Shown here piece after piece: positions 21,671-64,000 of a stretch of DNA of 64,000 bases. The first letter of the stretch is position 1; every line of letters starts with the position of its first letter. The position numbers and the translations under genes are program-made. The DNA is from Pseudomonas fluorescens (GTDB lineage Bacteria; Pseudomonadota; Gammaproteobacteria; Pseudomonadales; Pseudomonadaceae). Location: positions 2,171,001 to 2,235,000 of the forward strand of contig NZ_CP015637.1 in NCBI RefSeq assembly GCF_001708445.1, written 5' to 3'. Below the pieces are notes generated by a model that searched no databases, was not told the DNA's origin, and saw nothing but the letters and a program-made list of their open reading frames with translations.

Positions 21671-22714
21671 TCAACGAAACGCTGGCACGACCTGCTCGAT
21701 AAACAGCGCCAGGGATTTCTTCTTCTCGGCGTGGGGCAAGCTGTTGTCGCACCAGAAGCTGAACTCATCCACGCCCAATTCCTGGTAGTACTTGATGCGC
21801 GGGATGATCTCTTCGGCGGTGCCGATCATCGCGGTCTTGTGCAGGCTGTCCAGTTCGAACTCGGGGCGGGCGGCGAATTTTTCCTCCGGGCTTGGCGCCA
21901 GGAAGCCGTTGACCGGCACCTCTTTGTTGCCGAACCAGGCATCGAAGGTGCGATAGAACTTGGAGATCGCCTTGGCCCCGACTTTCCAGCCCTCTGGATC
22001 GTCGGCGGCGTGTACGTGGGTGTGGCGCAGCACCATCAATTGCGGGCGCGGCACCGCCGGGTTGTTGTCCAGGGCGGCCTGGAATTTGTTCTTCAGGTCG
22101 AGCACCTCTTCATCGCCTTTCATCAGCGGCGTGACCATCACGTTGCAGCCGTTGGCCACTGCGAAGTTGTGTGAGTCCGGGTCGCGGGCGGCGATCCACA
22201 TCGGCGGGTTGGGCTTTTGGATCGGTTTGGGCACGCTGGTGGAGGTGGGGAACTTCCAGAGGTCACCATCATGGGCGTAGTCGCCCTGCCACAGCGCGCG
22301 CACCACCGGCACCATTTCGCGCAGGGCCTGGCCACCGCTGGAGGCGGGCATGCCACCGGCCATGCGGTCGAATTCCACCTGGTAAGCGCCACGGGCCAGG
22401 CCGACTTCCATGCGGCCGTTGCTGATCACGTCGAGCAAGGCGCATTCACCCGCCACCCGCAGCGGGTGCCAGAACGGCGCGATGATGGTGCCGGCGCCCA
22501 GGTGAATGGTGGTGGTCTTGGCCGCGAGGTAAGCCAGCAACGGCATCGGGCTGGGCGAGATGGTGTATTCCATGGCGTGGTGCTCGCCAATCCATACGGT
22601 GCTGAAACCACCGGCTTCGGCCATCAGGGTCAGTTCGGTCAAGTCTTCGAACAGCTGGCGGTGGCTGATGCTTTCATCCCAGCGCTCCATGTGTACGAAC
22701 AGGGAAAACTTCAT
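21671..22714 (-). CDS. LLM-class (luciferase-like) flavin-dependent monooxygenase
   Basis: The 347-aa TIM-barrel protein of the bacterial luciferase/alkanal monooxygenase family uses reduced FMN supplied by a separate reductase. Visible family features are GFSTVWIGEHH at the N-terminus, LGAGTIIAPFWHPLRVAGE, the GRMEVGLARG segment and GTAEEIIPRIKYY near the C-terminus. It is transcribed alone, 187 bp divergent from a chemoreceptor gene, with a 17-bp operator in between. The same operator precedes a flavin reductase and transporters, so they probably serve one pathway. The substrate is not recognisable. Confidence 0.88.
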   Translation of the reverse strand: MKFSLFVHMERWDESISHRQLFEDLTELTLMAEAGGFSTVWIGEHHAMEYTISPSPMPLLAYLAAKTTTIHLGAGTIIAPFWHPLRVAGECALLDVISNGRMEVGLARGAYQVEFDRMAGGMPASSGGQALREMVPVVRALWQGDYAHDGDLWKFPTSTSVPKPIQKPNPPMWIAARDPDSHNFAVANGCNVMVTPLMKGDEEVLDLKNKFQAALDNNPAVPRPQLMVLRHTHVHAADDPEGWKVGAKAISKFYRTFDAWFGNKEVPVNGFLAPSPEEKFAARPEFELDSLHKTAMIGTAEEIIPRIKYYQELGVDEFSFWCDNSLPHAEKKKSLALFIEQVVPAFR

Positions 22715-22821
22715 GACGCTTACCTCGGATCTATTGTGATCGGCCTGTCGACTGCGGGCCCTTGAATGCTCACGCCCTTGTGAAGCCTGCCAGTGATGAC
22801 GGCTGTTCGGCGGATTGATTG

Positions 22822-22838
22822 TTGGTATACCATAATAC
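22822..22838 (+). promoter_or_regulatory. Operator site 1 of the LLM regulon
   Basis: TTGGTATACCATAATAC lies in the gap between the LLM gene (108 bp away) and the divergent chemoreceptor gene (65 bp away). The GGTATACC core is a perfect palindrome, as for GntR/FCD regulators. Four related 17-mers lie at 25601, 25774, 59417 and 60607. Confidence 0.75.
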
Positions 22839-22902
22839 GGAATATCCGCAAAACTTTTCTCTCCAACGGTCGCACTCTCACCTCACAAGGAAGGCGAGCT
22901 AG

Positions 22903-24849
22903 ATGAACATAAAACAAAAATTGATCCTGGCCTTTACGGTGATCGCCAGCCTGCCGGTGATTCTGGTGGCTGTGATGATCATCCTCAACGTGCGTCATGA
23001 AGCACGGGATGGCTTTATCGACGGCAGCGAGCGCGAGATCCGCCAGGTCGACAACGCCATGCAGCTGTTTTTCGAGGGCATCAGCCAGAACGTCGCCTAC
23101 CTGGCAGCGCACCCGCAGTTGCAGGGCATTGATGGCGATGTGAAACGCTACCTGGCCGCCGATGCTGCGCGCGTCGCCCCCGGCGTGCGTGACGAGCAGG
23201 TGTTCAAACTGTTCGAAGGCTTGGCCAAGAGTCATTCGGCCTATACCTATCTGTCCTTGGGCACCGAAGACGGTGGTTATGTGTTTTGGCCCGGCGACCC
23301 CCAGCTCGCCAGCTACGACCCGCGCACGCGTCCCTGGTACAAAACCGCGATGGCGCAGCCGGGCAAGACCCTGCGCACCCAGGCCTACTACTGGGCCGCC
23401 GACGATGTGGTGCTGGTCAGCACCGTGCAAAGTTTCAACAGCCGCCAGGGCAAGCCGGGTGGGGTGGTGAATATCGACGTATCGCTCAAGCAACTGACCG
23501 ACCTGGTCAAGCAGATCAAGTTGGGCGAGAGCGGCTACCTGATGCTGATGGAGGCCGACAATACCGTACTGGTCGACCCGAATGACCCGTCCCATAACTT
23601 CAAGGCGCTGGGCGAGTTGGGCGAGGGCTACCGGCAGTTGAGCGAGGCCGGCCAGGGTTTGGTCCAGGTCGAGCTGGCGGGGGAGCGCTACATGGCGCTT
23701 GTCTGGCCATCCAAGGCATTGGGCTGGCGATTTGTCGGGGTGATGCGCGAAAGTGAAGTGATGGCCGGCGCGGCGCGCCTGACCTGGCTGATCGCAGCCA
23801 TCGCGCTGGTGTGCGCGGTGCTATTTGCCGGGGTCGGGGCCTGGTTTGCCGGGCTGATCGTCAAGCCGATTCGCGGCGTGGCCAGTGGCCTGGAAGGTAT
23901 CGCTCAAGGCGAAGGTGACCTGACCGCGCGCCTGGCGATCAAGGGCCGCGACGAGACGGCGCAACTGGCCGGCTGGTTCAACCAGTTCCTCGAAGCGATC
24001 CGCACGCTGATTCAACGCATCGGCCAGGCCGCCGGGCAGATCCACAGCAGCTCTGGCAGTGCCACTGAAGTCTCGGTGGAAATGGCCGAAGTCGCCTCGC
24101 GCCAGCGCGAAGCGGTGGATATGGTCTCCACCGCGTTTCATGAAATGGTCGCCACTTCCAACGAAGTCGCGCGTTCCTGCAGCCAGGCCGCCGACTCGGC
24201 CGACAACGGCCAGCGCCAGGCCCATACCGGGCAGCAACAGATCGACGCGGCGGTGAACAGCGTGGGGCGCCTGAGCGAAGAAATCGGCCACTCCGCCCAG
24301 GCCATGGAGCAACTGGAAAAAGACAGCAACGACATCCAGTCGATCCTCGGCACCATCCGCTCCATCGCCGAACAGACCAACCTGTTGGCGCTGAACGCCG
24401 CCATCGAAGCCGCGCGAGCGGGTGAGCAGGGCCGTGGTTTTGCGGTGGTGGCGGACGAGGTGCGCGCGTTGGCCAAACGCACGTCGGACTCCACCGGCGA
24501 AATCGACGGGCTGCTGGGTAACCTGGCGCGGCGCACGCACCAGATGGGCAAGCAGATGCATGCCAGCCTTGAGGTGTCCCAGGAAACGGTGGTGTCGATC
24601 AACGACGCTCGCGAAAGCTTCGGGTTGATCCGCGAGTCGGTGGACGTGATCCGCGACATGAACACGCAAATCGCCACCGCCGCGGAAGAGCAGCACCAGG
24701 TGGCCGAAGACATCAATCGGCATATCAGCCAGATTCACGGGGATGCGCAATTGGTGGCAAGCCTGGCCGACGCCACACGCCAGGATGCACAGCAATTGAC
24801 GGCGTTGTCGCAGACGTTGAATCAACTGGTCAGCCGGTTTCGAACCTGA
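22903..24849 (+). CDS. Methyl-accepting chemotaxis protein with periplasmic Cache domain
   Basis: Transmembrane chemoreceptor of 648 aa. The first membrane segment is at about residues 8-28. The periplasmic dCache domain (about 35-285) shows the ligand-region signature [10 protein letters not shown] second membrane segment lies near 292-315, then a HAMP domain, then the signalling hairpin tip ([18 protein letters not shown], about residue 490). AAGGAAGGCGAG precedes the ATG. It shares its promoter region and an operator with the LLM monooxygenase gene, which suggests that it senses that pathway's substrate. Confidence 0.95.
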
Positions 24850-25066: not shown

Positions 25067-25552
25067 TCAGGCCGGCAGCGGCAGGGCGCCCATCTTGCCG
25101 TGGCAGTACACCAGTGGCCCGGCGTTCTGCTGGGGCACGATCAGGTTCTTCACCGAGCCGACCATGATCGCGTGGTCGCCGCCTTCGTATTCGCGCCACA
25201 ACTCGCACTCGATCACCGCCGTGGCATTGGCCAGGATCGGGTTGCCCAGTGCGCTCAAGGTCCATTCGATGCCTTGCGCCTTGTCCTTGCCCTTGCGCGC
25301 GAACGCGTAGGCTTCGCTTTGCTGGCCTGCGGAAAGGACGTGGATGGCAAAGCGCTTGTTCTTGATCAGCACCGGGTACGAGTCGGAACTGTAGTTGGGG
25401 CAAAACAACACCAGGGCCGGGTCCATGGATAACGAGCTGAAGGCGCTGGCCGTCAGCCCGACGATTTGCCCGTCGTCATCCAGCGTGGTGATCACGGTGA
25501 CCCCGGACGGAAACGAACCCATCACTTGTTTGTAGATGGCGGCATCGATCAT
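25067..25552 (-). CDS. Flavin reductase family protein (copy 1)
   Basis: The 161-aa NAD(P)H:FMN oxidoreductase of the HpaC/DIM6-NTAB fold reduces FMN for a two-component monooxygenase. FPSGVTVITT, ASAFSSLSMDPALVLFC and the C-terminal GGDHAIMVGSV segment are conserved. A close paralogue lies at 63062-63547, with the same length and about three quarters of residues shared by eye. It has its own promoter, with an operator of the LLM regulon 49 bp before the start. The probable client is the LLM monooxygenase at 21671. Confidence 0.9.
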   Translation of the reverse strand: MIDAAIYKQVMGSFPSGVTVITTLDDDGQIVGLTASAFSSLSMDPALVLFCPNYSSDSYPVLIKNKRFAIHVLSAGQQSEAYAFARKGKDKAQGIEWTLSALGNPILANATAVIECELWREYEGGDHAIMVGSVKNLIVPQQNAGPLVYCHGKMGALPLPA

Positions 25553-25600: not shown

Positions 25601-25617
25601 ATGGTATACCGTAATAC
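25601..25617 (+). promoter_or_regulatory. Operator site 2 of the LLM regulon
   Basis: ATGGTATACCGTAATAC lies 49 bp upstream of flavin reductase copy 1. It differs from site 1 at two positions and keeps the GGTATACC palindrome. Confidence 0.7.
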
Positions 25618-25773: not shown

Positions 25774-25790
25774 TTGGAATACCATAATAT
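25774..25790 (+). promoter_or_regulatory. Operator site 3 of the LLM regulon
   Basis: TTGGAATACCATAATAT lies 85 bp upstream of the NCS1 permease. It is identical over 17 bp to the site in front of the ABC importer at 59417 (opposite strand). The 322-bp divergent gap thus holds one site near each gene; nothing else is evident in it. Confidence 0.72.
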
Positions 25791-25874: not shown

Positions 25875-27281
25875 ATGCCCCAGATGTCCCGGCAAGACCC
25901 CCTGATCGAGCATCACACGGTCGATTACGTCCCCCTCGCAGAGCGCCATGGAAAGGCCCGCGACCTGTTCACCTTATGGTTCAGCACCAACATTGCACCG
26001 CTGCCCATCGTCACCGGCGCCATGGTGGCCCAGGTGTTCCATCTCAACCTGGTGTGGGGGCTGCTGGCGATTGCCCTTGGGCACCTGCTCGGCGGCATCG
26101 TGATTGCCCTCGCATCGGCGCAGGGCCCGCGCATGGGCATCCCGCAGATGGTGCAGAGCCGGGGCCAGTTCGGCCGTTACGGTGCGCTGCTGATCGTGTT
26201 CTTCGCCGCGCTGATCTACATCGGTTTCTTCATTTCCAATATCGTACTGGCGGGCAAGTCCATCGTCGGCATCGTGCCGTCGGTCCCGGTGCCGGCAAGC
26301 ATCCTGATCGGCGCGCTCGCCGCCACGGCTATCGGCGTGATCGGCTACCGCTTTATCCATAGCCTCAACCGTATCGGCACGTGGGTGATGGGCAGCGCGT
26401 TGCTGGCGGGGTTCGTCTACATCTTCGCCCATGACCTGCCGGCGGACTTCCTCACCCGTGGCGGCTTCAACGCGGCCGGCTGGCTGGCCACCGTATCGCT
26501 GGGGGTGATCTGGCAGATCAGCTTTTCGCCCTACACCAGCGACTACTCACGCTACCTGCCGGCGGATATCGGCATCACTCGGCCATTTATCGCGACTTAC
26601 CTGGGCGCGACCCTTGGCACCATCCTGTCCTTCGCCTTTGGCCTGGTCGCGGCATTGGCCACCCCCGAAGGCACCGAAGCCATGCTCGCCGTCAAGCAAG
26701 CCACCGGCTGGCTGGGGCCGATCCTGATGGTGCTGTTCCTGCTCAACATCATCAGCCACAACGCCCTGAATCTGTATGGCGCGGTGCTGTCGATCATCAC
26801 CTCGGTCCAGACCTTCGCCAGCCACTGGACCCCCAGCATCAAGGTGCGCGTGCTGCTCTCAGGCGTGATCCTCGCCGGTTGCTGTGTCGTCGCGTTGGGC
26901 GCGTCGGCGGACTTCATCTCGCAATTTATCGGCCTGATCCTCGCGCTGTTGCTGGTACTGGTGCCGTGGGCGTCGATCAACCTGATCGACTTCTACGTCA
27001 TCAAGCGCGGGGTCTATGACATTGCTTCGATCTTCCAGGCGGATGGCGGGGTGTACGGGCGTTTCAACCTGCATGCGATCGTGGCGTATTTCCTTGGCAT
27101 CCTTGTGCAACTGCCGTTTGCCAATACCTCGCTGTATGTGGGGCCGTGGGCCAACCTGGTGGAAGGCGCGGACTTGTCGTGGCTGGTGGGGTTGGTGGTG
27201 ACGTGTCCGTTGTATTACTGCCTGGCGACACGTCAACACACCCAGAAGGTCAGGGCGGGGCGGTTGGGCTATACCGACTGA
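25875..27281 (+). CDS. NCS1-family permease (nucleobase/cytosine/allantoin-type)
   Basis: Inner-membrane symporter of 468 aa with about 12 hydrophobic segments. Family landmarks are TLWFSTNIAPLPIVTGAM in the first helix, SQGP-like ASAQGPRMGIPQM, FSPYTSDYSRYLP and NLIDFYVIKRG. Known members carry nucleobases, hydantoins and related N-heterocycles. An LLM-regulon operator lies 85 bp upstream, so it may import the substrate of that pathway. Its end overlaps the converging mgdD gene by 13 bp. A start three codons later (ATG 25884) is equally possible. Confidence 0.9.
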   Translation: MPQMSRQDPLIEHHTVDYVPLAERHGKARDLFTLWFSTNIAPLPIVTGAMVAQVFHLNLVWGLLAIALGHLLGGIVIALASAQGPRMGIPQMVQSRGQFGRYGALLIVFFAALIYIGFFISNIVLAGKSIVGIVPSVPVPASILIGALAATAIGVIGYRFIHSLNRIGTWVMGSALLAGFVYIFAHDLPADFLTRGGFNAAGWLATVSLGVIWQISFSPYTSDYSRYLPADIGITRPFIATYLGATLGTILSFAFGLVAALATPEGTEAMLAVKQATGWLGPILMVLFLLNIISHNALNLYGAVLSIITSVQTFASHWTPSIKVRVLLSGVILAGCCVVALGASADFISQFIGLILALLLVLVPWASINLIDFYVIKRGVYDIASIFQADGGVYGRFNLHAIVAYFLGILVQLPFANTSLYVGPWANLVEGADLSWLVGLVVTCPLYYCLATRQHTQKVRAGRLGYTD

Positions 27282-27838: not shown

Positions 27839-30736
27839 TTAACCCTCCTGGCGTTGGTTGGTGGGGTCGAAGAACGGCAGTTGCACCACCTCGGCCTGGA
27901 CGACGATGCCGCCCTCGACGCGAATCGGAATGCGCTGCCCCGGTGTGCTCTGGTCGATCCCGGCATAGGCCAGGCCGATGATACGGCCCAGGCTGCTGGA
28001 GTATTCGCAGGAGGTGACGTTGCCGCTGATGTCCGCGCCGTTGAGCACCAGGTGGCCTTCCAGCGGTTGTACGCTGCCCTTGGGCAGGCTGAAGCCCACC
28101 AGTTTGCGTTTCAGCGGTTGGGCTTCGAGGATGTCCACCGAGCGGCGGCCGACGAAAAACGGCTTGGTGCGGCTCACTGCCCAGCCCATGTCGATTTCCG
28201 CCGGGTGGGTCATGCCATCGGTGTCCTGGCTGATGATCACGTGGCCTTTTTCCAGGCGCAGCAGGCGTTGGGTCTCGACGCCGAAGGGGCGAATGTCAAA
28301 GGCCTTGCCGGCCGTCATCAACGCGTCCCACAACGCCAGGCCGTGGCGCGCCGGTACGTGGATTTCATAGCCCAGTTCGCCGACGAAACCCACCCGCAGC
28401 AGGCGGGCCTTGGTCCCGGCCACCGTGCCCTGGCGCACGCCCAGGTAGGGGAAGCCTTCAGCACTGAGGTCGAGGTCGCTGCACACCTGTTCCAGCACCT
28501 TGCGCGAATCCGGCCCGGCCACGTTCACCGCACAGATCGCTGCCGTGACGTTGGTCACGTCCACGTCCAGGCGCCACTGCGCGTTCCACTTGAGCATCTG
28601 CTGGTAGATGCGGTCGACGCCGCTGGTGGTGGCGGTGACGTAGAAATGCTTGTCGGCCAGCCGCGCGCACACGCCGTCGTCGATCACCACGCCGTGTTCG
28701 TTGGTCATCAGCGCATAACGCGAACGGCCCACCGGCTGCTTGAGGAACGCAAAGGTGTACATGCGGTTGAGCAGTTCGGCGGCGTCCGGGCCGCGTACAT
28801 CCAGGCCGCCCAGGGTCGACACATCGATCAGGCCAACCTTGTTGCGCACGTGCAGCGCTTCGGCCTGCATGCAGGCTTCGCGGTCCTCGGGCTTGCCATA
28901 GTAGGCCGGGCGTTGCCAGATACCGGCAGGCATCATCTTCGCCCCGGCTTGCACATGGCGCGCGTGCATCGGCGTTTGGCGGTAGGGGTCGAAGGCACGC
29001 CCGGCGACATGCGCGAGTTTTTCCGCCACGAATGGCGGCCGTGCGGTGGTCACTCCGGTTTCACTGATATTGCGCTGGGTCGCCCAGGCCACCAGCCGCG
29101 CGGTCGGCAGCGCCGAGTGGCGCCCCTGGGACGGGCCCATGCCGACCGTGGAGTAACGCTTGACCAACTGCACATCGCGGTAGCCGATGCGGGTGGCGTT
29201 GACGATGTCCGCCACTTGCAGGTCTTCGTCAAAATCCACGAAGTCCTTGCCCTTGGGGTGCGGGAAGATTGGCCAGTGGAAGTTGACCTGGGCTTCGCTG
29301 CGCAGCGGCACGCGCGGGCTGGCAGTCTTCAAGCCGAGGGCGAGCACACTGTCGGCGGCGGCATTGGTGGCGTCTGCCAGCACGTTGTCCAACTGGTGCC
29401 GACCGTGCACGGAGCCGGCCACATTCAGGTTCTGCGGTAAACCGCTGAGGCTGAACTCCGCACGCGAGTCGTCATAGGCCAGCTTGCCACCGGCCTGGCA
29501 CAGCAACTGATAGACCGGCATATAACCGGCGGACATGCACAGCAGGTCGCAGTCGATCACTTGCCCGCTGGCGCTGACCTGGCCCTGGCCGGTGATCTGA
29601 CGCACGTCGACGCCCTTCACATGGCGCAGGCCTTTTTCATGCAGGGCCTCGAACACCGTGCTGTTGGTCAGGCACGGGATCTTACGCTGGGCCAGGGCCG
29701 CGGGCAGGGCGTTGTCTGCCGGAGCGTGACGCAGGTCGATCACGGCGGCCACGTCGACGCCCTGGTCATGCAGGTCGAGGGCGGCGAGGTAGCCGTCATC
29801 GTTGCCGGTGAGCACCACGGCGCGCTTGCCGGGCTTGACCGCATAGAGCTTCATCAGGCGTTGCGCGGCACTGGTGAGCATCACCCCCGGTAGATCGTTG
29901 TTGCGGAAAACCACCGGTTGGTCGAACGAACCGCTGCACACCAGGCACTGTTGCGCGCGCACCTTATACAGGCGCTTGCCCTGGATCACCGGCAGGTAGT
30001 TGTCGGTAAACCAGGCATTGCAGGTGGCGTCGGTGAGCACTCGGATATTCGCGTGCTGCTGCACCGCGTCCAGCAACTCGCGGCGCAAGGTGTCGGCGCG
30101 GGTGCCGGCGATATCGAAGCGCGCATAGGTCAGCGACCCACCGAGGATCGGCTGCTGTTCGATCAGCAACACCTTGGCTCCGGCATTCGCGGCGGTCAGC
30201 GCGGCCTGCAAGCCGGCGGGGCCGGCACCGATCACCGCGAGGTCGGTAAACAGGTAGGCCTTGTCGTAGTACTCAGGTTGGAATCTCAGGTCGAGCACGC
30301 CCAGGCCGGCCTTTTTACGGATGATCGGCTCCCAGACTTTCCACATGCCCTTGGGCTTGTAGAACGAGCGATAGTAGAAACCCACCGGCATGAACCTGGA
30401 GAACTTGCCCAGGTAGGCGTCCTTGTCGTTGTCCAGCGAACCGTTGACGTTCTGCGCCGTTACGGCCAAGCCGGCGGACAGCGCGTGGGCATCGGCCAGC
30501 ACGTTGGGTTCGCGGGGCAGTTGCACCAGGCTGTTGGCGTCCTGGCCGGCCATGGTCAAGGGGCCGCGTGGGCGGTGGTATTTGAACGAACGCGACATCA
30601 GGAAGCGCCCGTTGGCGAGCAGGGCACTGGCGATGCTGTCGCCCTGTAAACCTTGGTAGGGCAGGCCGTCGAAACTGAAATCGAGTGGCTGGTCACGCTG
30701 GATCAGCAGGCCCATGGGGGCGGGGAGGCGGTTCAT
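27839..30736 (-). CDS. mgdC: N-methylglutamate dehydrogenase subunit C (sarcosine oxidase alpha-like)
   Basis: The 965-aa subunit has an N-terminal ferredoxin-fold segment lacking iron-sulphur cysteines (residues 1-100) and a dinucleotide-binding domain starting at VIGAGPAGLQAAL (about residue 168). A C-terminal folate-binding GcvT-like domain (about 590-965) contains GLIDVSTLGGLDVRGPDA and GYEIHVPARH. This is the alpha-subunit layout, in which the methyl carbon leaves as methylene-THF. It overlaps mgdB by four bases (ATGA). FolD and PurU, encoded upstream in the same operon, would process the C1 product. Confidence 0.82.
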   Translation of the reverse strand: MNRLPAPMGLLIQRDQPLDFSFDGLPYQGLQGDSIASALLANGRFLMSRSFKYHRPRGPLTMAGQDANSLVQLPREPNVLADAHALSAGLAVTAQNVNGSLDNDKDAYLGKFSRFMPVGFYYRSFYKPKGMWKVWEPIIRKKAGLGVLDLRFQPEYYDKAYLFTDLAVIGAGPAGLQAALTAANAGAKVLLIEQQPILGGSLTYARFDIAGTRADTLRRELLDAVQQHANIRVLTDATCNAWFTDNYLPVIQGKRLYKVRAQQCLVCSGSFDQPVVFRNNDLPGVMLTSAAQRLMKLYAVKPGKRAVVLTGNDDGYLAALDLHDQGVDVAAVIDLRHAPADNALPAALAQRKIPCLTNSTVFEALHEKGLRHVKGVDVRQITGQGQVSASGQVIDCDLLCMSAGYMPVYQLLCQAGGKLAYDDSRAEFSLSGLPQNLNVAGSVHGRHQLDNVLADATNAAADSVLALGLKTASPRVPLRSEAQVNFHWPIFPHPKGKDFVDFDEDLQVADIVNATRIGYRDVQLVKRYSTVGMGPSQGRHSALPTARLVAWATQRNISETGVTTARPPFVAEKLAHVAGRAFDPYRQTPMHARHVQAGAKMMPAGIWQRPAYYGKPEDREACMQAEALHVRNKVGLIDVSTLGGLDVRGPDAAELLNRMYTFAFLKQPVGRSRYALMTNEHGVVIDDGVCARLADKHFYVTATTSGVDRIYQQMLKWNAQWRLDVDVTNVTAAICAVNVAGPDSRKVLEQVCSDLDLSAEGFPYLGVRQGTVAGTKARLLRVGFVGELGYEIHVPARHGLALWDALMTAGKAFDIRPFGVETQRLLRLEKGHVIISQDTDGMTHPAEIDMGWAVSRTKPFFVGRRSVDILEAQPLKRKLVGFSLPKGSVQPLEGHLVLNGADISGNVTSCEYSSSLGRIIGLAYAGIDQSTPGQRIPIRVEGGIVVQAEVVQLPFFDPTNQRQEG

Positions 30737-31032
30737 CCGGCGATCTCCTTGGCGGTGGTGAAGTCGACGCGGGTGGTGAATAACTCGCGGGGATCGAAGG
30801 TGCGCAGGATTTCATCGGTGACCGTGTGGCGTTCGGCGAGGAACCAATAGCTGGAGGGCGTGTGCATCCACCATTCGCGCACCACACCGGCGAGGTTGTC
30901 GGTGTTGAACACGTAGTCGGCCCATTCGGCATCGCTGCACGTCACTGGGTCGGGCATCGGTTTGAATTCACCGCCATAGGTGAACTCGCTGATATTGCGT
31001 GGCCCGTTGAGCGGGCACATCATGATTTTCAT
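30733..31032 (-). CDS. mgdB: N-methylglutamate dehydrogenase subunit B (sarcosine oxidase delta-like)
   Basis: The small 99-aa subunit has the delta-family pattern CP..G..N..EF.YGGE, then EWADYVFNTDN and REWWMHTPSSYWF. Sarcosine oxidase delta subunits bind zinc through CPxCG, but here the motif is CPLNG, so the second cysteine is missing and the zinc site may be lost or altered. The ATG at 31032 is preferred; a longer reading into mgdA has no family similarity. It sits 13 bp after mgdA and overlaps mgdC. Confidence 0.78.
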   Translation of the reverse strand: MKIMMCPLNGPRNISEFTYGGEFKPMPDPVTCSDAEWADYVFNTDNLAGVVREWWMHTPSSYWFLAERHTVTDEILRTFDPRELFTTRVDFTTAKEIAG

Positions 31033-31045
31033 AGTCCGCTCTCCG

Positions 31046-34037: not shown

Positions 34038-34120
34038 GACACGTCCTCGGGATGATGGCGGCAGCTCATCGCATAGCGAAAAAATGTCTGAGGACAGCAG
34101 GCTCATTCCTTGAGCGCGTT

Positions 34121-34153
34121 TTCTTGTGGGGAATAAAATATTCCTGAAGTGGC
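34121..34153 (+). promoter_or_regulatory. Paired 13-bp operator upstream of purU-folD-mgdABCD
   Basis: TTCTTGTGGGGAA at 34121 and TTCCTGAAGTGGC (a half-matching copy) at 34141 are 20 bp apart. They match the pairs at 35185, 35281 and 52366. The neighbouring Xre-cupin regulator is the likely binder. Confidence 0.6.
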
Positions 34154-34222
34154 TTTATAGGGGAATGGGGGCGGGGCGTCTAGGGGTTTTGGGAAAGATT
34201 TTTAACTGGGGGGAAATTTTTT

Positions 34223-50955: not shown

Positions 50956-50966
50956 ATCACTCACTC

Positions 50967-56487: not shown

Positions 56488-57297
56488 TCAGGCGCGGGTT
56501 TCGGTACGCCGGCGAACGGCGGCGGCAATCACCATGACCAGTACCGAGAGGCCGATCAGCAGCGTCGAAGCGACGGCGATCACAGGCGTCAGGTCCTGGC
56601 GCAGGGTGGTCCACATTTTCACGGGAAGGGTTTGCAGGGTCGGGCTGGCCATCATCACGCTGAGCACCACCTCGTCCCACGAGACCAGAAAGGCAAACAG
56701 CGCACCGGCCACCATTCCTGGGCGAATCGCCGGAAAGGTCACCTTGAACACCGCCTGCAAACGCGAGGCGCCGCAGATCACCGCCGCGTCTTCGATCGAC
56801 TGGTCGAACAGCTTCAGCGAGTTGATGATCGAGATGATCGTGAACGGCAGCGCGACGATCACATGGCTGACCACAAAGGCGAACATCGTGCCGGTGTAGC
56901 CGAGCTTGAGGAACAGCGCGTACACCGCCACGGCGATGATCACCAGCGGCACGATCATCGGCAGCGTGAACAGACCGTAGAGCAGCTCACGGCCGGGGAA
57001 ACGCCCGCGCACCAGGGCAAACGCGGTGGGCAGGCCCAGGGCGACGGCGAACACGGTGGTCAGCACCGCCACCTTGAGGCTGGCCATCGCGGCATTCATC
57101 CAGTCGGCGTTGGAGAAGAACTGGCCATACCATTTCAGCGTCCAGCCCGGTGGCGGGAACACCAGCCATTGCGACGAGCCGAACGAGAGCAGCACGATGA
57201 ACACGATCGGCAGCAGCAGGAACAGGCCGATCAAGCCGGTGGTGGTGTAGAGGCCCAAGCGCATCCTGCGGCTCATGGCATTGGGAGTCAGGAGCAT
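56488..57297 (-). CDS. ABC importer permease (PotC-like)
   Basis: Inner-membrane subunit of 269 aa with six hydrophobic segments and the coupling motif GASRLQAVFKVTFPAIRPG. It starts 6 bp after the PotB-like gene, with GAGG nine bases before the ATG. Confidence 0.92.
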   Translation of the reverse strand: MLLTPNAMSRRMRLGLYTTTGLIGLFLLLPIVFIVLLSFGSSQWLVFPPPGWTLKWYGQFFSNADWMNAAMASLKVAVLTTVFAVALGLPTAFALVRGRFPGRELLYGLFTLPMIVPLVIIAVAVYALFLKLGYTGTMFAFVVSHVIVALPFTIISIINSLKLFDQSIEDAAVICGASRLQAVFKVTFPAIRPGMVAGALFAFLVSWDEVVLSVMMASPTLQTLPVKMWTTLRQDLTPVIAVASTLLIGLSVLVMVIAAAVRRRTETRA

Positions 57298-57303
57298 GAC
57301 GGC

Positions 57304-58221
57304 TTACCTCGCGTTGCTGGCGCCAACCGGGGATTCCGGCTGAAGCTTCAGGTAGAAGTAGAACAGCACCAGGGTGATGAAGATCAGCAACGCGGCGCCG
57401 GCACTGGCCAGGCCCCAATTGAGGAACGATTGCACCTGCTGGATGATGAACTCGGGCAGCATCATGTTCTGCGCACCGCCGAGCAGCGCCGGGGTGACGT
57501 AGTAACCGAGGGACATCACGAACACCATCAGGCCGCCGGAAAACAACCCCGGCCGGCACAGCGGCAGGAACACCCGGAAGAAGTTGGTCCACGGGCTCGC
57601 GCCGCAGATCGAGCCGGCCTGCAGGATCATCGGGTCGATGGCCTGCATGGTCGCCTGCAACGGCAGCACAATGAACGGGATCATGATGTAGCTCATGCCG
57701 ATCACCACGCCGGTCAGGTTGTGCACCATCTCCAGCGGCTGATCGATGATGCCCATCGCCATCAGCGCCTTGTTGATCACTCCGGAGGCTTGCAGCAAGA
57801 CCAACCAGGAATAGGTGCGGGCGAGCAGGCTGGTCCACATCGATAGCAGCACGATGTTCAGGATCCAGCGCCCCCAGCCGCGCGGCACCAGGGTAATCGC
57901 CCAGGCCAGCGGGAAGCCCAGCAGCAGGCTGAACAGGGTCACCAGGCCCGCCACCGAAAAGGTGTTGAGCAGCACCCGTGCATAGGCCGAGTTGGCAAAC
58001 AGTTGTTCATAGTTGCCCAGGCCCGGCACCGGCTCCAGCACGCCACGCAGCAGCAGGCCGATCAGCGGCGCCAGGAAGAACAGGCCGAGGAACAGCAGGG
58101 CCGGGATCAGGTTGCTCGACCCCCGCCAGCGCTGCGCCAGGGACGGCGCACCGGCCTTGGAGGAAACCGCGCCGGCAGCGCCGAGGGCGCTCCCGGTCGG
58201 TGTGGTTGCCGTCATTTTCAT
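57304..58221 (-). CDS. ABC importer permease (PotB-like)
   Basis: Inner-membrane subunit of 305 aa from the ATG that overlaps the binding-protein stop (ATGA at 58218-58221); an in-frame start four codons earlier is possible. It has six hydrophobic segments and the coupling motif GASPWTNFFRVFLPLCRPG. Confidence 0.91.
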   Translation of the reverse strand: MKMTATTPTGSALGAAGAVSSKAGAPSLAQRWRGSSNLIPALLFLGLFFLAPLIGLLLRGVLEPVPGLGNYEQLFANSAYARVLLNTFSVAGLVTLFSLLLGFPLAWAITLVPRGWGRWILNIVLLSMWTSLLARTYSWLVLLQASGVINKALMAMGIIDQPLEMVHNLTGVVIGMSYIMIPFIVLPLQATMQAIDPMILQAGSICGASPWTNFFRVFLPLCRPGLFSGGLMVFVMSLGYYVTPALLGGAQNMMLPEFIIQQVQSFLNWGLASAGAALLIFITLVLFYFYLKLQPESPVGASNAR

Positions 58222-59243
58222 TTGACTAGCCATTCATTCCACCGTGTCGCAATGGCCGGACCGTTCTTGGCCCAGTAGGCGAAATCGAGGGTGATCTGAT
58301 CCTTGACGTAGGCGGTCGGCAGGTTCGGCGCCAGCACCGAGTCGAGGCGCTGCACACTGTCGATGTTCACTGGAGCATAGGCGGTCAGGTTGGAAAAGTC
58401 GGCCTGGCCTTTGGCGCTGCTGGCACTGGCCAGGAACTTCATCGCGGCGGCTTTGTTCTTCGTGCCTTTAGGCACGACGAGGATGTCGGCCATCACCAGG
58501 TTCTGCTTCCAGCTCACGCCCACTGGCGCGCCGTCTTCCTGCAGGGCGTGGATGCGACCGTTCCAGAACTGGCCCATGCTGACTTCGCCGGAGGCCAGCA
58601 GTTGCTGAGACTGTGCACCGCCGCCCCACCAGACGATGTCTTTCTTGATGGTGTCGAGTTTCTTGAAGGCGCGGTCCAGGTCCAGCGGGTAGAGCTTGTC
58701 GGCCGGTACGCCGTCGGCGAGCAGGGCCAGTTCGAGCACGCCAGGGCTCGGCCATTTGTAGAGGGCGCGTTTGCCGGGGTAGGTCTTGGTGTCGAACAGC
58801 GCGGTCCAGTCCTGGGGCTTGCTGGCGCCGAGCTTGCCTTCGTTGTAGCCGAGCACGAAGGAGAAGAAGAACGAGCCCACGCCATGGTCGGAGACGAAGC
58901 GCGGGTCGATCTTGTCGCGCTGGATCACCGAGAAATCCAGGGGTTCGAGCAGACCTTCGGCGGCGGCGCGCAAGGCGAAGTCGGCCTCCACATCCACCAC
59001 GTCCCACTGCACGTTGCCGCTTTCGACCATGGCCTTGAGTTTGCCGTAGTCGGTGGGCCCATCCTGGACCACGGTAATGCCGCTGGCCTTGCTGAACGGG
59101 TCGGCCCAGGCCTGCTTCTGCGCATCCTGGGTGCTACCGCCCCAGCTCACGAAGTTGATGCTTTCGGCCGCCAGGGCCGCGTGGGTGGCCGTCGCCAGTA
59201 AACCGGCAAACAGCACCGCGGTTGTACGTTTGTTCAACACCAT
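58218..59243 (-). CDS. ABC importer periplasmic substrate-binding protein (PotD/spermidine type)
   Basis: Extracytoplasmic binding protein of 341 aa, with a signal peptide ending in LAAES near residue 26 and the family start INFVSWGGSTQ. The ATG at 59243 follows GAGGG by seven bases; a GTG two codons upstream is less likely. The family takes up polyamines and other cationic or amine compounds. It is first in the importer operon, with an exact copy of the LLM-regulon operator 174 bp upstream, so it probably imports a substrate or precursor for that pathway. Confidence 0.9.
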   Translation of the reverse strand: MVLNKRTTAVLFAGLLATATHAALAAESINFVSWGGSTQDAQKQAWADPFSKASGITVVQDGPTDYGKLKAMVESGNVQWDVVDVEADFALRAAAEGLLEPLDFSVIQRDKIDPRFVSDHGVGSFFFSFVLGYNEGKLGASKPQDWTALFDTKTYPGKRALYKWPSPGVLELALLADGVPADKLYPLDLDRAFKKLDTIKKDIVWWGGGAQSQQLLASGEVSMGQFWNGRIHALQEDGAPVGVSWKQNLVMADILVVPKGTKNKAAAMKFLASASSAKGQADFSNLTAYAPVNIDSVQRLDSVLAPNLPTAYVKDQITLDFAYWAKNGPAIATRWNEWLVK

Positions 59244-59416
59244 GTTCACGCCCTCATTTGTTTTGTTATTGAGCGGGCTGGTAATGCCCGCCTATCGGGA
59301 GCAGTAGGTCAATCAGGGCCTCAGTCGGGGCCCCAAAAGGCGACCGTGCCAAGGGCTGTTATTGGTGCTATCCCTGGCGGGCGCACTTGGCGAAAGCGTT
59401 CGGTCTATGGAATATC

Positions 59417-59433
59417 ATATTATGGTATTCCAA
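59417..59433 (-). promoter_or_regulatory. Operator site 4 of the LLM regulon
   Basis: On the minus strand it reads TTGGAATACCATAATAT, identical to site 3. On the + strand it is part of a wider inverted repeat, TGGAATA ... TATTCCA (59408-59432). It is the only notable element in the 225-bp gap before the ABC importer genes. Confidence 0.74.
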
Positions 59434-59468: not shown

Positions 59469-60578
59469 TCATTCGGTGAAGGGAATGCTCTCGACCACCT
59501 CCAGGTCGTAGCCGGTCAGCCCGGCGTATTTGAGGGGCGGGCCGAGGTGACGCAGCTTGCCGACGCCGAGGTCCTGCAAGATCTGCGCCCCGGTACCCAC
59601 TTCCGAATAGATGCGCGACTGCGAACGGTTGAACTGGCGTGGCGCCTGGGTGAGTTGTGGCACACGCTCCAGCAGCGCCTGGGACGACTCATGGTTGGCC
59701 AGCACCACCACCACGCCGCAGCCTTCGGCGGCGACGCGTTGCAACGCGGCCCACAGGGTCCAGTTGGACGGGCCGCTGTAGTCGGCGCCGACCAGGTCGC
59801 GCAGCGGGTCGATCACATGCACGCGCACCAGCGCAGGGGTATCGCGGCGCAACTGGCCCATGACCATTGCCATGTGCACGCCGCCGTCGATGCGGTCTTC
59901 GAAGGTGATCAGGCGGAACGTGCCATGCACCGTGGGCAAATCCCGTTCGCCAATGCGCACCACGGTACGCTCGGTGCTGAGGCGGTAGTGGATCAGGTCG
60001 GCGATGGTGCCGATCTTGATCCCATGTTTGCGCGCGAAAATTTCCAGGTCGGGGCGGCGCGCCATGGTGCCGTCGTCGTTCATCACTTCAACGATCACCG
60101 AGGCCGGTGTGTGCCCGGCCAGGCGCGCCAGGTCGCAGCCGGCTTCGGTGTGGCCGGCGCGGGTCAATACGCCGCCGTCCTTGGCGCGCAACGGGAAGAT
60201 ATGCCCAGGTTGCACGATGTCGGCGGGCCCGGCATTGACGTCAACGGCCGCCGCCACGGTGCGCGCGCGGTCGGCGGCAGAGATGCCGGTGGTTACGCCG
60301 CTGGCGGCTTCGATGGACACGGTAAACGCCGTACTGAACACGCTGCCATTGCTCGGCACCATCTGCTCGAGGCCCAGGCGCTGGCAATGTTCGTCGGTCA
60401 GGGTCAGGCAAATCAGGCCACGGGCTTCGCGAGCCATGAAACTGATAGTCTCGGCGGTGCAGCAGGCAGCGGGCAGCAACAGGTCGCCTTCGTTTTCCCG
60501 GTCTTCGTCGTCCACCAGGAGCACCATCTTGCCCTGGCGATAGTCTTCGATGATGTCTGCGATGCTGTTGAAGGGCAT
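59469..60578 (-). CDS. ribB: 3,4-dihydroxy-2-butanone-4-phosphate synthase with degenerate GTP cyclohydrolase II domain (RibBX type)
   Basis: Makes the four-carbon precursor of riboflavin from ribulose 5-phosphate. The 369 aa begin with the RibB domain (about 1-200): DDEDRENEGDLL, RARGLICL and the RAGHTEAGCDLARLAG motif. The C-terminal domain resembles GTP cyclohydrolase II but has no zinc cysteines where a functional enzyme has them (after LVRVH), so it is probably inactive. The ATG at 60578 is used. It shares an operator with the divergent DUF1330 gene; extra flavin supply for the LLM monooxygenase is a likely purpose. Confidence 0.88.
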   Translation of the reverse strand: MPFNSIADIIEDYRQGKMVLLVDDEDRENEGDLLLPAACCTAETISFMAREARGLICLTLTDEHCQRLGLEQMVPSNGSVFSTAFTVSIEAASGVTTGISAADRARTVAAAVDVNAGPADIVQPGHIFPLRAKDGGVLTRAGHTEAGCDLARLAGHTPASVIVEVMNDDGTMARRPDLEIFARKHGIKIGTIADLIHYRLSTERTVVRIGERDLPTVHGTFRLITFEDRIDGGVHMAMVMGQLRRDTPALVRVHVIDPLRDLVGADYSGPSNWTLWAALQRVAAEGCGVVVVLANHESSQALLERVPQLTQAPRQFNRSQSRIYSEVGTGAQILQDLGVGKLRHLGPPLKYAGLTGYDLEVVESIPFTE

Positions 60579-60606: not shown

Positions 60607-60623
60607 GTATTATGGTATACCAC
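60607..60623 (-). promoter_or_regulatory. Operator site 5 of the LLM regulon
   Basis: On the minus strand it reads GTGGTATACCATAATAC, 16 of 17 bases identical to site 1. It lies 29 bp before the ribB start and 26 bp before the divergent DUF1330 start, a position that can control both. Confidence 0.74.
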
Positions 60624-60648: not shown

Positions 60649-60942
60649 ATGAAGGCTTACTGGATTGCCCATGTGGATGTGTCCGACGCAGAGCAGTACA
60701 CGCAGTACACCCAACGCGCACCGGCAGCGTTTGCCAAGTTTGGCGGGCGGTTCCTGGCCAGGGGCGGGCGCAGCGAGGCGATGGAAGGCGGGCCGGCACG
60801 GCAGCGCAATGTGGTGATCGAGTTCGATAGCTACGAGCAGGCGGTGGCGTGCTACGAGTCTGCTGAATATCAGGAGGCGAAGGGGTACCGTGAAGGGGCG
60901 GGGGTGGCGCAGATCGTCATCGTGGAAGGGCTGGCGCCTTAG
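60649..60942 (+). CDS. DUF1330 family protein
   Basis: Small protein of 97 aa from ATG 60649 with GAGG eight bases upstream. It has the dimeric alpha-beta barrel pattern of DUF1330: AYWIAHVDVSD, KFGGRFLARGG, ERNVVIEFDSYEQA-like residues and YQEAKGYREGAG. The fold is used by small monooxygenases and isomerases. It is under the shared operator at 60607, so it probably works in the LLM pathway, perhaps on a reactive intermediate. The function is unknown. Confidence 0.85.
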   Translation: MKAYWIAHVDVSDAEQYTQYTQRAPAAFAKFGGRFLARGGRSEAMEGGPARQRNVVIEFDSYEQAVACYESAEYQEAKGYREGAGVAQIVIVEGLAP

Positions 60943-61262: not shown

Positions 61263-61826
61263 TCAGCGGATAAAGTGGATCTTGCCGCTGCCGTCATTGC
61301 CGATGTAGATGCCATACACCCCGGCCTGGCGTTCCTCGATATACCGTTCGAGGATCTGCCGGATCGCCGGGTAGTAGATGCTGTCCCAGGGAATGTCCTC
61401 GGGTGCGAAGAACCGGTAGTCGAGGGTTTCCGGGCCGAACTGGCCGGTGATCTCCAGCGCGATGGCGCGGAAGATGATGTACACCTCGCTGATCGTCGGC
61501 ACGCTGAAGATCGAGTAGGGCGAGACGATTTCCGCGCGCACGCCGCTTTCTTCCCAGACTTCGCGCAACGCGGCTTGTTCAGTGGTCTCGCCGCCTTCCA
61601 TGAAGCCGGCCGGTAGGGTCCAGGTGCCGGGACGGGGCGGGATTGCCCGTTGGCACAGCAGGTATTTGCCGTCCTGCTCGATGATGCAGCCGGCGATGAT
61701 CTTGGGGTTGATGTAGTGGATATAGCCGCAACCCCGGCACATCAGGCGCTCATGCGTATCGCCCGGTGGCAACTGGCGACCGAGGTCACTGCCGCCGCAT
61801 TTCGGGCAATAGCTTGGGCTGAACAT
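61263..61826 (-). CDS. Zinc-ribbon NUDIX hydrolase
   Basis: The 187-aa hydrolase has a four-cysteine ribbon at the N-terminus (CPKCGG and CRGCGY, residues 7-33). The NUDIX box is GFMEGGETTEQAALREVWEESG, which keeps the REVxEE core. It resembles ADP-ribose or NADH pyrophosphatase-like proteins, but the substrate cannot be assigned. It follows the GntR-type gene by 2 bp and is probably the last gene of that operon. Confidence 0.88.
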   Translation of the reverse strand: MFSPSYCPKCGGSDLGRQLPPGDTHERLMCRGCGYIHYINPKIIAGCIIEQDGKYLLCQRAIPPRPGTWTLPAGFMEGGETTEQAALREVWEESGVRAEIVSPYSIFSVPTISEVYIIFRAIALEITGQFGPETLDYRFFAPEDIPWDSIYYPAIRQILERYIEERQAGVYGIYIGNDGSGKIHFIR

Positions 61827-61828: not shown

Positions 61829-62581
61829 TCAGTGGCCTATGCGCGGTTCTTTGAGCGCGATGGGCAGGGTGATCTCTGGAATCTTGCCGGTCTCTTCCTG
61901 CTTGCGCTTGAGGTAATCCAGGGCCACGGCAGCGGCTGCGCGCACGTGATCGACACAGGCCTGGTGCGCCGCGAGCGGATCGCCGCTCTTGATTGCCTGG
62001 ACCATGCGTTCCATTTCCTGGTTACTGGCGCCGCGGCGGTTTTCCTGGGACACCGAGGTGGCGCGCAGGTAGCTGATACGCGCCTGCAACTGGCGCAGTT
62101 GCGTGGCCGCCACGTGGTTGCCGGAGCCTTCGAGCAAGACGTCGTAGAAGCCTTGCACCGAGTCGATCACCTGTTGCAGTTCGCCGTCCTTGAGGGCCTT
62201 GCGGTTCTCCTCCAGGGCTTTTTCCAGGGCCTTGATGTCCTTGGCCTTGGCGCGCAGGGTGAACAACTGCACGATCAAGCCTTCGAGCACGCAGCGCAGT
62301 TCATAGATGTCGACCGCGTCGGCCAGGGTGATGATCGCGACCTGCGGGCCTTTGGCATCGGCAAACTCCACCAGGCCCTCGGACTCCAGGTGACGCAGGG
62401 CTTCGCGCACCGACGTGCGGCTGACGCCCAGGCGATCACACAGGTCGCGTTCTACCAGGCGGTCGCCCGGCAGGAGCTGGAAGTTCATGATGGCGCTGCG
62501 CAGTTTCTCCAGCACGATTTCGCGCAGGGTGACCGGGTTGTGATTGACCTTGAAGCTGTCGTCGAGTGGCAGGCGTTTCAT
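61829..62581 (-). CDS. GntR-family regulator, FCD (FadR-like) subgroup
   Basis: The 250-aa regulator has an N-terminal winged helix (about residues 18-75, with DLCDRLGVSRTSVREALRHL) and an all-helical FCD ligand domain (about 90-225). It starts at ATG 62581; a longer reading is a shadow. It is the fourth gene of a leftward operon with aldehyde dehydrogenase, flavin reductase and decarboxylase-like genes. FCD regulators bind palindromes such as TGGTATACCA, which is the core of the five sites in this window. It is therefore the prime candidate controller of the LLM regulon. Confidence 0.9.
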   Translation of the reverse strand: MKRLPLDDSFKVNHNPVTLREIVLEKLRSAIMNFQLLPGDRLVERDLCDRLGVSRTSVREALRHLESEGLVEFADAKGPQVAIITLADAVDIYELRCVLEGLIVQLFTLRAKAKDIKALEKALEENRKALKDGELQQVIDSVQGFYDVLLEGSGNHVAATQLRQLQARISYLRATSVSQENRRGASNQEMERMVQAIKSGDPLAAHQACVDHVRAAAAVALDYLKRKQEETGKIPEITLPIALKEPRIGH

Positions 62582-62658: not shown

Positions 62659-63048
62659 TTAACGGGTGGCCTCTGCATCGGCTTCGGCGAAAGCTTCCCG
62701 GGCCAGCCGGAAGCTGTCCACGGCGGCGGGAACCCCGCAATAAATGCCGACCTGAAGCAGAATTTCGCGTATTTGTTCACGACTCAGCCCGTTACGCAAG
62801 GCGCCACGTACATGCAGCTTGAGCTCGTGAGGTCGATTGAGGGCCGAAATCATTGCCAAGTTTATCATGCTGCGTTCTTTAAGCGACAAACCCTCACGGC
62901 CCCACACATGGCCCCAGCAGTACTCGGTGACCATCTCCTGCAAGGGCCGGGTGAAATCGTCGGCATTCTCGAGGGAGCGCTGCACATAGGCTTCGCCCAG
63001 CACCTGGGTGCGGATTTTCAGGCCCTGCTCATATTTGTCGTTGCTCAT
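62659..63048 (-). CDS. Carboxymuconolactone decarboxylase (PcaC-like) family protein
   Basis: The 129 aa resemble PcaC: EYCWGHVWGREGLSLKERSM, LAMISALNRPHELKLHVRGA and ILLQVGIYCGVPAAVDSF. There is no CxxC redox pair, so it is not an AhpD-type peroxidase. No other beta-ketoadipate genes are nearby, so its substrate is probably an intermediate of the LLM pathway. It lies 13 bp after flavin reductase copy 2 and 77 bp before the GntR-type gene. Confidence 0.85.
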   Translation of the reverse strand: MSNDKYEQGLKIRTQVLGEAYVQRSLENADDFTRPLQEMVTEYCWGHVWGREGLSLKERSMINLAMISALNRPHELKLHVRGALRNGLSREQIREILLQVGIYCGVPAAVDSFRLAREAFAEADAEATR

Positions 63049-63061
63049 CGTACTGTGCTCC

Positions 63062-63547
63062 TCAGGCCAGGGTGGGCAGCGGGCCCAGCTTGCCTTTGTG
63101 GTAGATCATCGGCGTGACCGGTTGCTCGGGCAGGATCAGGTTCTTCACTGCGCCGACGATGATCGCGTGATCACCGCCATCGTATTCGCGCCACAACTCA
63201 CACTCGATGATCGCCGTGGCCTTGGCCAGCAACGGGTTGCCCAGGTCGCTGAGGTGCCACTCGATGCCCTTGGCCTTTTCCTTGCCCTTGCTGGCGAAGG
63301 CATAGGCTTCGGCGGTTTGGTCGGCCGACAGCAAGTGAATCGCAAAGCGCTTGCTGTCGCGCAGCACCGGGTAGGTGTCCGAAGCGTAGTTGGGGCAGAA
63401 CAGCACCAGGGCCGGGTCGATCGACAGCGCACTGAACGCGCTGGCGGTAATGCCCACGATGCCGCCGTCCGGGTCCAGGGTGGTGACCACCGTGACGCCG
63501 GAGGGGAACGAGCTCATGACGTCTTTGTAAATGCCGGGTTCGATCAT
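63062..63547 (-). CDS. Flavin reductase family protein (copy 2)
   Basis: The 161-aa FMN reductase is a paralogue of the protein at 25067-25552, sharing FPSGVTVVTT, ASAFSALSIDPALVLFC and GGDHAIIVGAVKNLI. It lies 12 bp after the aldehyde dehydrogenase gene. Two reductases for one visible LLM enzyme suggest a second monooxygenase outside the window or redundancy. Confidence 0.9.
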   Translation of the reverse strand: MIEPGIYKDVMSSFPSGVTVVTTLDPDGGIVGITASAFSALSIDPALVLFCPNYASDTYPVLRDSKRFAIHLLSADQTAEAYAFASKGKEKAKGIEWHLSDLGNPLLAKATAIIECELWREYDGGDHAIIVGAVKNLILPEQPVTPMIYHKGKLGPLPTLA

Positions 63548-63559
63548 GGTCGGGGTCTC

Positions 63560-64000
63560 TTAACGCATCACAAAAGGATCAGGCATGGGCGCCTGGGAGA
63601 GGTTGATCCACACCGTCTTCAGCTCGGTGTAGGCCAGCACCGAATCGATGCCGCTTTCGCGTCCGTAGCCGCTGTTCTTGAAGCCGCCGATGGGCGCCAT
63701 GGCCGAGACGGCGCGGTAGGTGTTGACCCAGATGATCCCCGAGCGCACGTCCCGGGCCAGGCGGTGAGCGCGGCCCAGGTCGCGGGTCCAGATGCCGGCG
63801 GCGAGGCCGAACTGCGAGTCGTTGGCGATCGCCAGGGCTTCGGCTTCGTCCTTGAAGCGGATCACCGAGGCCACCGGGCCGAAGACTTCTTCCTGCATGA
63901 TCTTCATCGAGTTGCGGTCGCACTCGAACAGGGTCGGCTCATAGAACCAGCCGGCCCCCAGGTTCTGCGGGCGCTTGCCGCCGGTGCGCAGGCGCGCGCC
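63560..64000 (-). CDS. Aldehyde dehydrogenase, C-terminal part (cut by the window end)
   Basis: The reading frame is open to the right edge, giving the last 146 residues of an NAD(P)-dependent aldehyde dehydrogenase. Family motifs are EEVFGPVASVIRF (with the conserved cofactor-binding glutamate), LAAGIWTRDL, IIWVNTY and PIGGFKNSGYGRESG. The catalytic cysteine and N-terminus lie outside. It is the most upstream visible gene of the leftward operon that includes flavin reductase copy 2 and the GntR-type regulator. Confidence 0.92.
   Translation of the reverse strand, partial: GARLRTGGKRPQNLGAGWFYEPTLFECDRNSMKIMQEEVFGPVASVIRFKDEAEALAIANDSQFGLAAGIWTRDLGRAHRLARDVRSGIIWVNTYRAVSAMAPIGGFKNSGYGRESGIDSVLAYTELKTVWINLSQAPMPDPFVMR

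Follow-up and report, generated by a model that had tools for sequence, protein, structure and literature searches.

Results

A shared operator and a probable trigonelline gene set

In a 64,000-nucleotide stretch of the Pseudomonas fluorescens genome (the window; C1:2171001-2235000, C1 being contig NZ_CP015637.1, the single contig of this 6.64-Mb genome), two blocks of genes lie on either side of a methylamine island and, with a continuation past the window end, form a regulon of seventeen proteins under one 15-bp palindromic operator, TGGTATACCATAATA. Sequence comparison makes it highly probable that this regulon serves the catabolism of trigonelline (N-methylnicotinate), from sensing and import to ring opening. 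The pathway is a known one; new are the second LLM subfamily of its monooxygenase, the operons split round the methylamine island, and the presence of RibBX, a Nudix hydrolase and a chemoreceptor in the regulon. The protein families named in a preliminary description of this DNA were all confirmed at their places by family searches, as was the separation of the two blocks by genes whose Pfam content is that of methylated-amine metabolism; all families of its parts list are present. Not in that list are the Nudix hydrolase gene inside the window and, past its end, the remainder of the aldehyde dehydrogenase gene and the genes for an alpha/beta hydrolase and a PF06684 protein.

The same description had proposed a shared operator, and the searches bore it out. 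At up to 2 mismatches, 7 matches were counted in the window where 100 shuffles predict 0.01; two sites are read on both strands, and the matches correspond to five places. A scan of the whole genome at up to 1 mismatch returned six places, all of them within C1:2193823-2237558 and ahead of regulon genes (Table 1). Three weaker sites were set aside: the operator core TGGTATACCA occurs at 6119030, inside a frame that is protease-like by eye, and at 2289097, where it overlaps the 5' ends, as listed, of divergent frames for a TonB-receptor-like and a bestrophin-like protein (both judged by eye), in both cases with no 15-mer within 3 mismatches, and a reading frame encloses the 2-mismatch operator-like site at 1397911. 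Of the Pseudomonas genomes sampled (199, counting G000), 114 contain the operator at up to 1 mismatch, and the reversed-pattern control gave zero in 198 of the 199. Gaps between neighbouring regulon genes were then compared in named loci, i.e. the best 80 of 517 confirmed LLM loci, all from Pseudomonas records. For gene pairs at most 1.5 kb apart, an operator with up to 2 mismatches was present in 19/19 LLM/chemoreceptor, 58/58 flavin reductase 1 (FR1)/NCS1, 18/18 binding protein/RibBX and 16/16 RibBX/DUF1330 gaps; on these 111 gaps the reversed pattern had 0 matches and the mean over 20 permuted patterns was 0.

The combination of genes had not been recognised as a named pathway. It does match one, the trigonelline (tgn) cluster, which Perchat et al. 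(2018, PNAS) reportedly described, with its reaction steps, in A. baylyi ADP1. The earlier suggestions of a single pathway and of a nitrogen-containing, possibly heterocyclic substrate are judged right. Bacterial trigonelline breakdown opens with ring opening by TgnA/TgnB, according to an excerpt of PMC8269262. When the seventeen regulon proteins were compared with the Acinetobacter baumannii record L128 at a match threshold of 1e-5, ten found a counterpart: the LLM monooxygenase (50% identical), aldehyde dehydrogenase (55%), PF06684 protein (57%) and alpha/beta hydrolase (35%), the NCS1 permease (58%), the PcaC-like CMD protein (74%), the DUF1330 protein (54%), the FCD regulator (38% overall, its DNA-binding region being aligned between the two), and flavin reductases 1 and 2 (FR2), which are 37 and 36% identical to the same L128 protein. 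RibBX, the Nudix hydrolase, the chemoreceptor and the four ABC genes had no match in L128 at this threshold. The L128 LLM protein is in turn 93-94% identical to three clusters to which NCBI gives the name flavin-dependent trigonelline monooxygenase oxygenase component, the other listed relatives bearing mostly generic names or none. Among 120 listed relatives of the window LLM protein, four rows at 75-82% identity carry the Joint Genome Institute (JGI) name trigonelline monooxygenase.

The operator is shared as well. In L128 one copy (1 mismatch) stands ahead of the PF06684 gene and overlaps the ATG of its longest frame; we take this gene to start later, as in the window genome. A second copy (1 mismatch) at 18456 lies 42 bp ahead of a gene start at 18498, the product of which scores 691 bits against a curated succinate-semialdehyde dehydrogenase cut-off of 646. 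In one record each, the operator precedes PF06684 in Leisingera (1 mismatch), Sinorhizobium meliloti (2) and Burkholderia multivorans (2); the latter two have more copies ahead of GntR genes, and B. multivorans (L131) has one ahead of a second flavin reductase; of the L131 copies away from PF06684, one has 1 mismatch. The Arthrobacter record L127 has no operator at up to 3 mismatches. As a control, the reversed pattern gave one 3-mismatch match each in L128 and L127 and zero in the other three of the five outside clusters compared.

Related clusters outside Pseudomonas

The core of LLM, flavin reductase, dehydrogenase, hydrolase, PF06684 protein and FCD-type regulator recurs in Acinetobacter, Burkholderia, Sinorhizobium and Leisingera and, with a more distant regulator, in Arthrobacter. 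In contrast to the Acinetobacter cluster, that of Pseudomonas has RibBX, the ABC importer and the chemoreceptor in addition and is split around the methylamine island. Moreover, the Acinetobacter reductase carries a Nudix-like region at its C-terminus, whereas Pseudomonas encodes flavin reductase and Nudix hydrolase as separate genes. In pairwise alignments with shuffles, the window Nudix protein aligns with the C-terminal part, beyond the flavin reductase domain, of TgnA-type reductases from L128-L131 (five proteins, 308-320 residues; z 12-22 over shuffles). By eye, the Nudix box of these reductases is degraded, and a Pfam scan of four of them called no Nudix domain in the C-terminal region.

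The B. multivorans and S. meliloti (L129) clusters combine the core genes with an ABC importer 47-61% identical to that of Pseudomonas, the former having NCS1, CMD and DUF1330 homologues too; the LLM of both belongs to the TgnB group, and the stretch compared has no RibBX or chemoreceptor match. The cluster on the Arthrobacter dokdonellae plasmid (L127:4342-15068) includes an LLM protein 77.5% identical to the window's, a hydrolase, an aldehyde dehydrogenase, a Nudix protein and PF06684 twice. It differs in its regulator (32% identical) and cytosine permease (27%), an added tautomerase and a SnoaL-flavin reductase fusion, and it has a riboflavin kinase where Pseudomonas has RibBX, which suggests that a supply of flavin mononucleotide (FMN) was added more than once. 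Succinate-semialdehyde dehydrogenases are annotated in the Arthrobacter and S. meliloti clusters, and the Burkholderia stretch shown has no gene so annotated.

Co-occurrence and arrangement in Pseudomonas

That the scattered genes form one pathway had been proposed together with a check, a search for the same families in other genomes. The search did not refute the proposal, as the families recur both in Pseudomonas and in the outside genera. At thresholds of E<=1e-100 for LLM, E<=1e-40 for the PF06684 protein and up to 1 mismatch for the operator, LLM was found in 112/199 and PF06684 in 116/199 of the Pseudomonas genomes. For cross-tabulation, two PF06684 proteins of 53% identity only (G119 and G044) and a 100-residue fragment (G058, 90%) were left out, and genomes with a non-zero operator count were taken as operator-positive. 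Both PF06684 and the operator are present in 112/112 LLM-positive genomes, against 1/87 (PF06684) and 2/87 (operator) of the LLM-negative ones, counts that are not corrected for phylogeny. The two operator-bearing LLM-negative genomes, G058 with the PF06684 fragment and G076 with PF06684, are drafts of ~100 and ~650 contigs. Further PF06684 copies, 72-74% (G149, G181) and 53-54% (G129, G048, G044, G119) identical to that of the regulon, were also seen; those in G149, G181, G129 and G048 are second copies, and such copies possibly belong to sister pathways.

The dispersal of the blocks is common but variable. Where both are on one contig (92 genomes), LLM and PF06684 start more than 60 kb apart in 13; in 24 genomes their starts are separated by less than 2 kb. 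Of the named loci, 76 span 12 kb or more; the stretch seen most often among these is NCS1-FR1-LLM alone (23 loci), and in several named loci the order CMD-FCD-Nudix-DUF1330-RibBX-ABC stands directly ahead of NCS1 or FR1. The ABC ATPase was found in 22/80 named loci, in 16 of these 22 at most 1.5 kb from NCS1 or FR1. The window has this contiguous order; here the island separates ABC from NCS1, and the chemoreceptor separates FR1 from LLM. In G134, G024 and G003 (L163, L166 and L164), LLM has PF06684, hydrolase, dehydrogenase, FR2, CMD, FCD and Nudix directly behind it, an arrangement that links both blocks; in other genomes the blocks are far apart, by up to megabases.

Proposed pathway and its weighing

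Trigonelline is a methylated relative of vitamin B3 made by plants, and its cleavage gives methylamine. From the likenesses described above we infer the chemistry, the inducer and the direction of control: the FCD regulator would repress the genes behind the six operators until trigonelline or a metabolite of it is present. The compound may be imported by the NCS1 permease, the ABC importer or both, and the chemoreceptor may steer cells to it. The LLM monooxygenase and flavin reductase, using reduced FMN and O2, would cut the ring at C5-C6 (chemistry as reported for A. baylyi), the aldehyde dehydrogenase would oxidise the ring-opened product, and the hydrolase would split the oxidised product into CO2, formate, methylamine and succinic semialdehyde. 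The semialdehyde would be converted to succinate by a GabD-type dehydrogenase elsewhere in the genome, and the product of C1:176784 scores 1019 bits against a GabD-type cut-off of 828 and is 62% identical to the succinate-semialdehyde dehydrogenase of L128. RibBX and the Nudix hydrolase would supply FMN, and methylamine would enter the N-methylglutamate pathway encoded between the blocks. The roles of PF06684, CMD, DUF1330, RibBX, Nudix and the chemoreceptor are likewise putative.

Release of methylamine fits the presence of methylamine genes between the blocks. An mgsC-like gene (window 38335-39657; E<=1e-150) occurs in 47/199 genomes, namely in 44/112 LLM-positive versus 3/87 LLM-negative ones (Fisher p 3e-10, not phylogeny-corrected). 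Of the 44 genomes with both, 35 have them on the same contig, and in 29 they are no more than 35 kb apart, with several different spacings. We incline slightly to the view that the whole is a self-sufficient module, in which one operator, found in alpha-, beta- and gammaproteobacteria, drives a chemoreceptor, two importers, FMN supply, a second LLM subfamily and PF06684, CMD and DUF1330, and whose product, methylamine, would explain why it recurs beside genes of methylamine assimilation.

Several observations weigh against the assignment to trigonelline. In a tree of 30 rows, from which very distant own paralogues and gapped alignment rows were left out, the LLM protein groups with actinobacterial and other proteins in a fully supported clade apart from the TgnB group, and it is only 47-50% identical to TgnB-group rows (44% to one row). 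Among its 120 listed relatives, 12 JGI rows bear a generic alkanesulfonate-monooxygenase name and none is a trigonelline monooxygenase by NCBI name; the database protein names used here are homology-based. The hydrolase is only 35% identical to its L128 counterpart, and the Acinetobacter comparison was made through this A. baumannii record, not through A. baylyi ADP1 itself. The cluster and regulon lack a succinate-semialdehyde dehydrogenase (TgnE), the gene at C1:176784 lying far off and without an operator. The scans of window and genome found no operator at the methylamine island genes, and 68/112 LLM-positive genomes have no mgsC-like match, so methylamine use is not obligatory and the link is frequent, not necessary. 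The sampled Pseudomonas species are related, so that the genome counts are not independent events. Finally, the sensor of the chemoreceptor (residues 27-295) aligns with PDB 6mni (362 bits), which we take to be a PscC domain, and its nearest solved relative is presumably of the gamma-aminobutyric acid (GABA)/proline type.

The chemoreceptor is counted as a regulon member because an operator precedes it. PscC of Pseudomonas syringae is given as a GABA/L-Pro chemoreceptor in an excerpt of PMC9452764; the window chemoreceptor, whose sensor aligns with 6mni, differs in carrying the regulon operator. According to an excerpt of PMC10104139, the amine-type dCache domains studied there did not bind trigonelline, and one of PMC8269324 lists McpX of S. 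meliloti as a direct trigonelline receptor.

Among other explanations, the one that survives best, at a rather low probability, is that the substrate is a related N-alkyl pyridinium or another N-methyl heterocycle, the LLM having shifted its substrate while regulator, operator and downstream enzymes were kept. The separate LLM clade at ~50% identity to the TgnB group, the divergent hydrolase and the different flavin reductase architecture speak for it. However, the aldehyde dehydrogenase, PF06684 protein, NCS1 permease and CMD protein are 55-74% identical to their Acinetobacter counterparts and the operator is the same. Furthermore, LLM matches at E<=1e-100 never exceed one per genome among the 199; since relatives from the TgnB group (44-49% identity) also reach this threshold, no sampled Pseudomonas genome shows both LLM subfamilies. 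It is very improbable that two or more pathways share one regulator, with the RibBX/ABC block, for example, serving something else. This block does lie far from the LLM block in some genomes (~0.9 Mb in G003), the importer ATPase was not found in the stretch covered for 58/80 named loci, and RibBX is unmatched in the five other clusters compared; yet the ABC importer homologue lies within the Sinorhizobium and Burkholderia clusters along with LLM, aldehyde dehydrogenase and hydrolase, and all binding protein/RibBX and RibBX/DUF1330 gaps carry the operator. Least credible of all is cleavage of an N-unsubstituted ring (pyridine- or uracil-like, of Rut or Pyr type) beside coincidental methylamine genes: LLM, flavin reductase, hydrolase and NCS1 do resemble Rut and pyridine clusters and the flavin reductases have weak RutF similarity, but RutF is far below its cut-off, RutA is absent from the best 25 of 30 LLM rows, and the mgsC-like gene is associated with LLM and close to it.

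As for other families tried, the flavin reductases reach 69.5 and 61.3 bits with the RutF model TIGR03615 (cut-off 254.75), and any RutA match of LLM, not being among the best 25 of 30 NCBIfam rows, is weaker than 2.2e-7. The NtaA/DmoA family, which includes chelator monooxygenases, was rejected at 30.1 bits (TIGR03860, cut-off 279.7), and the alkanesulfonate family (TIGR03565) lies far below its curated cut-off. To seven LLM paralogues of its own genome the protein is 17-22% identical. At L091:15099-15563, in a named Pseudomonas record, part of another LLM gene from this subfamily (155 residues, 86%) lies near the intact one.

Feature map and neighbouring genes

Table 1. Operators, regulon genes and methylamine island. 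Positions are those of the window; L009 coordinates belong to a stretch running on beyond the window end.
Feature	Position	Strand	Remark
LLM (PF00296) monooxygenase, TgnB-like	21671..22714	-	second subfamily
Operator TGGTATACCATAATA	22823..22837	+	0 mismatches; LLM/chemoreceptor gap
dCache chemoreceptor	22903..24849	+	sensor domain akin to PDB 6mni
Flavin reductase 1 (PF01613)	25067..25552	-	
Operator	25602..25616	+	1 mismatch; ahead of flavin reductase 1
Operator	25775..25789	+	1 mismatch; ahead of NCS1 permease
NCS1 permease	25875..27281	+	58% identical to Acinetobacter-cluster permease
Neighbour genes, among them formyl-transferase, regulator, ammonium-type transporter	27839..41119	.	Pfam content; without operator
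folD-like, permease, DUF1989+GCV_T, FMO-like, formyl-transferase, GCV_T, HODM-like, DmmA-like	41449..51935	-	Pfam content
ABC importer ATPase	55316..56470	-	start 56470 chosen among ATG/GTG candidates
ABC permease	56488..57297	-	
ABC permease	57304..58233	-	
PotD-type binding protein	58218..59249	-	
Operator	59418..59432	-	1 mismatch; ahead of ABC importer
RibBX, riboflavin precursor synthesis	59469..60578	-	
Operator	60608..60622	-	0 mismatches; RibBX/DUF1330 gap
DUF1330 protein	60649..60942	+	
Nudix hydrolase	61263..61826	-	Nudix box intact by eye; 2 bp after FCD/GntR gene
FCD/GntR regulator	61829..62581	-	like the Acinetobacter-cluster one
PcaC-like CMD protein	62659..63048	-	74% identical to Acinetobacter-region one
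Flavin reductase 2	63062..63547	-	73% identical to flavin reductase 1
Aldehyde dehydrogenase, TgnC-like	63560..64000, on past window; L009:4560-6041	-	
Alpha/beta hydrolase, TgnD-like	L009:6038-6886		beyond window
PF06684 protein	L009:6916-7506		beyond window, next to sixth operator
Sixth operator	L009:7544-7558		2.5 kb past window end; heads PF06684 operon

Spacing and strand suggest that the last operon, which runs from the operator at L009:7544 through PF06684, hydrolase, aldehyde dehydrogenase, FR2, CMD and FCD to Nudix, is probably one transcript. Elements of the sequence GTGGGAGGGGGCTTGCCCCCGAT, REP-like by eye, are repeated in regulon gaps (window 24880-24980 and 60970-61240).

The first part of the island has sarcosine-oxidase-like, glutamine-synthetase-like, GATase and glutamate-synthase-domain genes and an ammonium-type transporter, presumably the N-methylglutamate pathway (mgsC and others). 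The second part we take to be a tri-/dimethylamine route, apparently one from trimethylamine to methylamine that connects with the N-methylglutamate genes. G134 has one more NCS1-type permease, with 65% identity to that of the window, between Nudix and the methylamine genes (L163:11423-12802). Beside the LLM gene, at window 17329-21372, stands a three-gene molybdenum dehydrogenase (2Fe-2S, MoCoBD and cytochrome c) without an operator, which could oxidise an aldehyde or N-heterocycle.

Significance

Among the papers listed in literature searches, none deals with this operator or with trigonelline regulons of Pseudomonas; as few subscription papers were covered, this is weak evidence of novelty. 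The analysis turns a regulon of unknown substrate into a testable assignment for more than half of the sampled Pseudomonas species (112/199), and the 15-bp operator may be used for seeking trigonelline genes in other proteobacteria. The roles of the accessory genes (PF06684, PcaC-like CMD, DUF1330, RibBX, Nudix and chemoreceptor) become testable on one substrate. Trigonelline accumulates in higher plants, according to an excerpt of PMC8269262, and its sensing and use, with recovery of the methylamine nitrogen, would therefore be relevant to the life of these bacteria around roots and on leaves.

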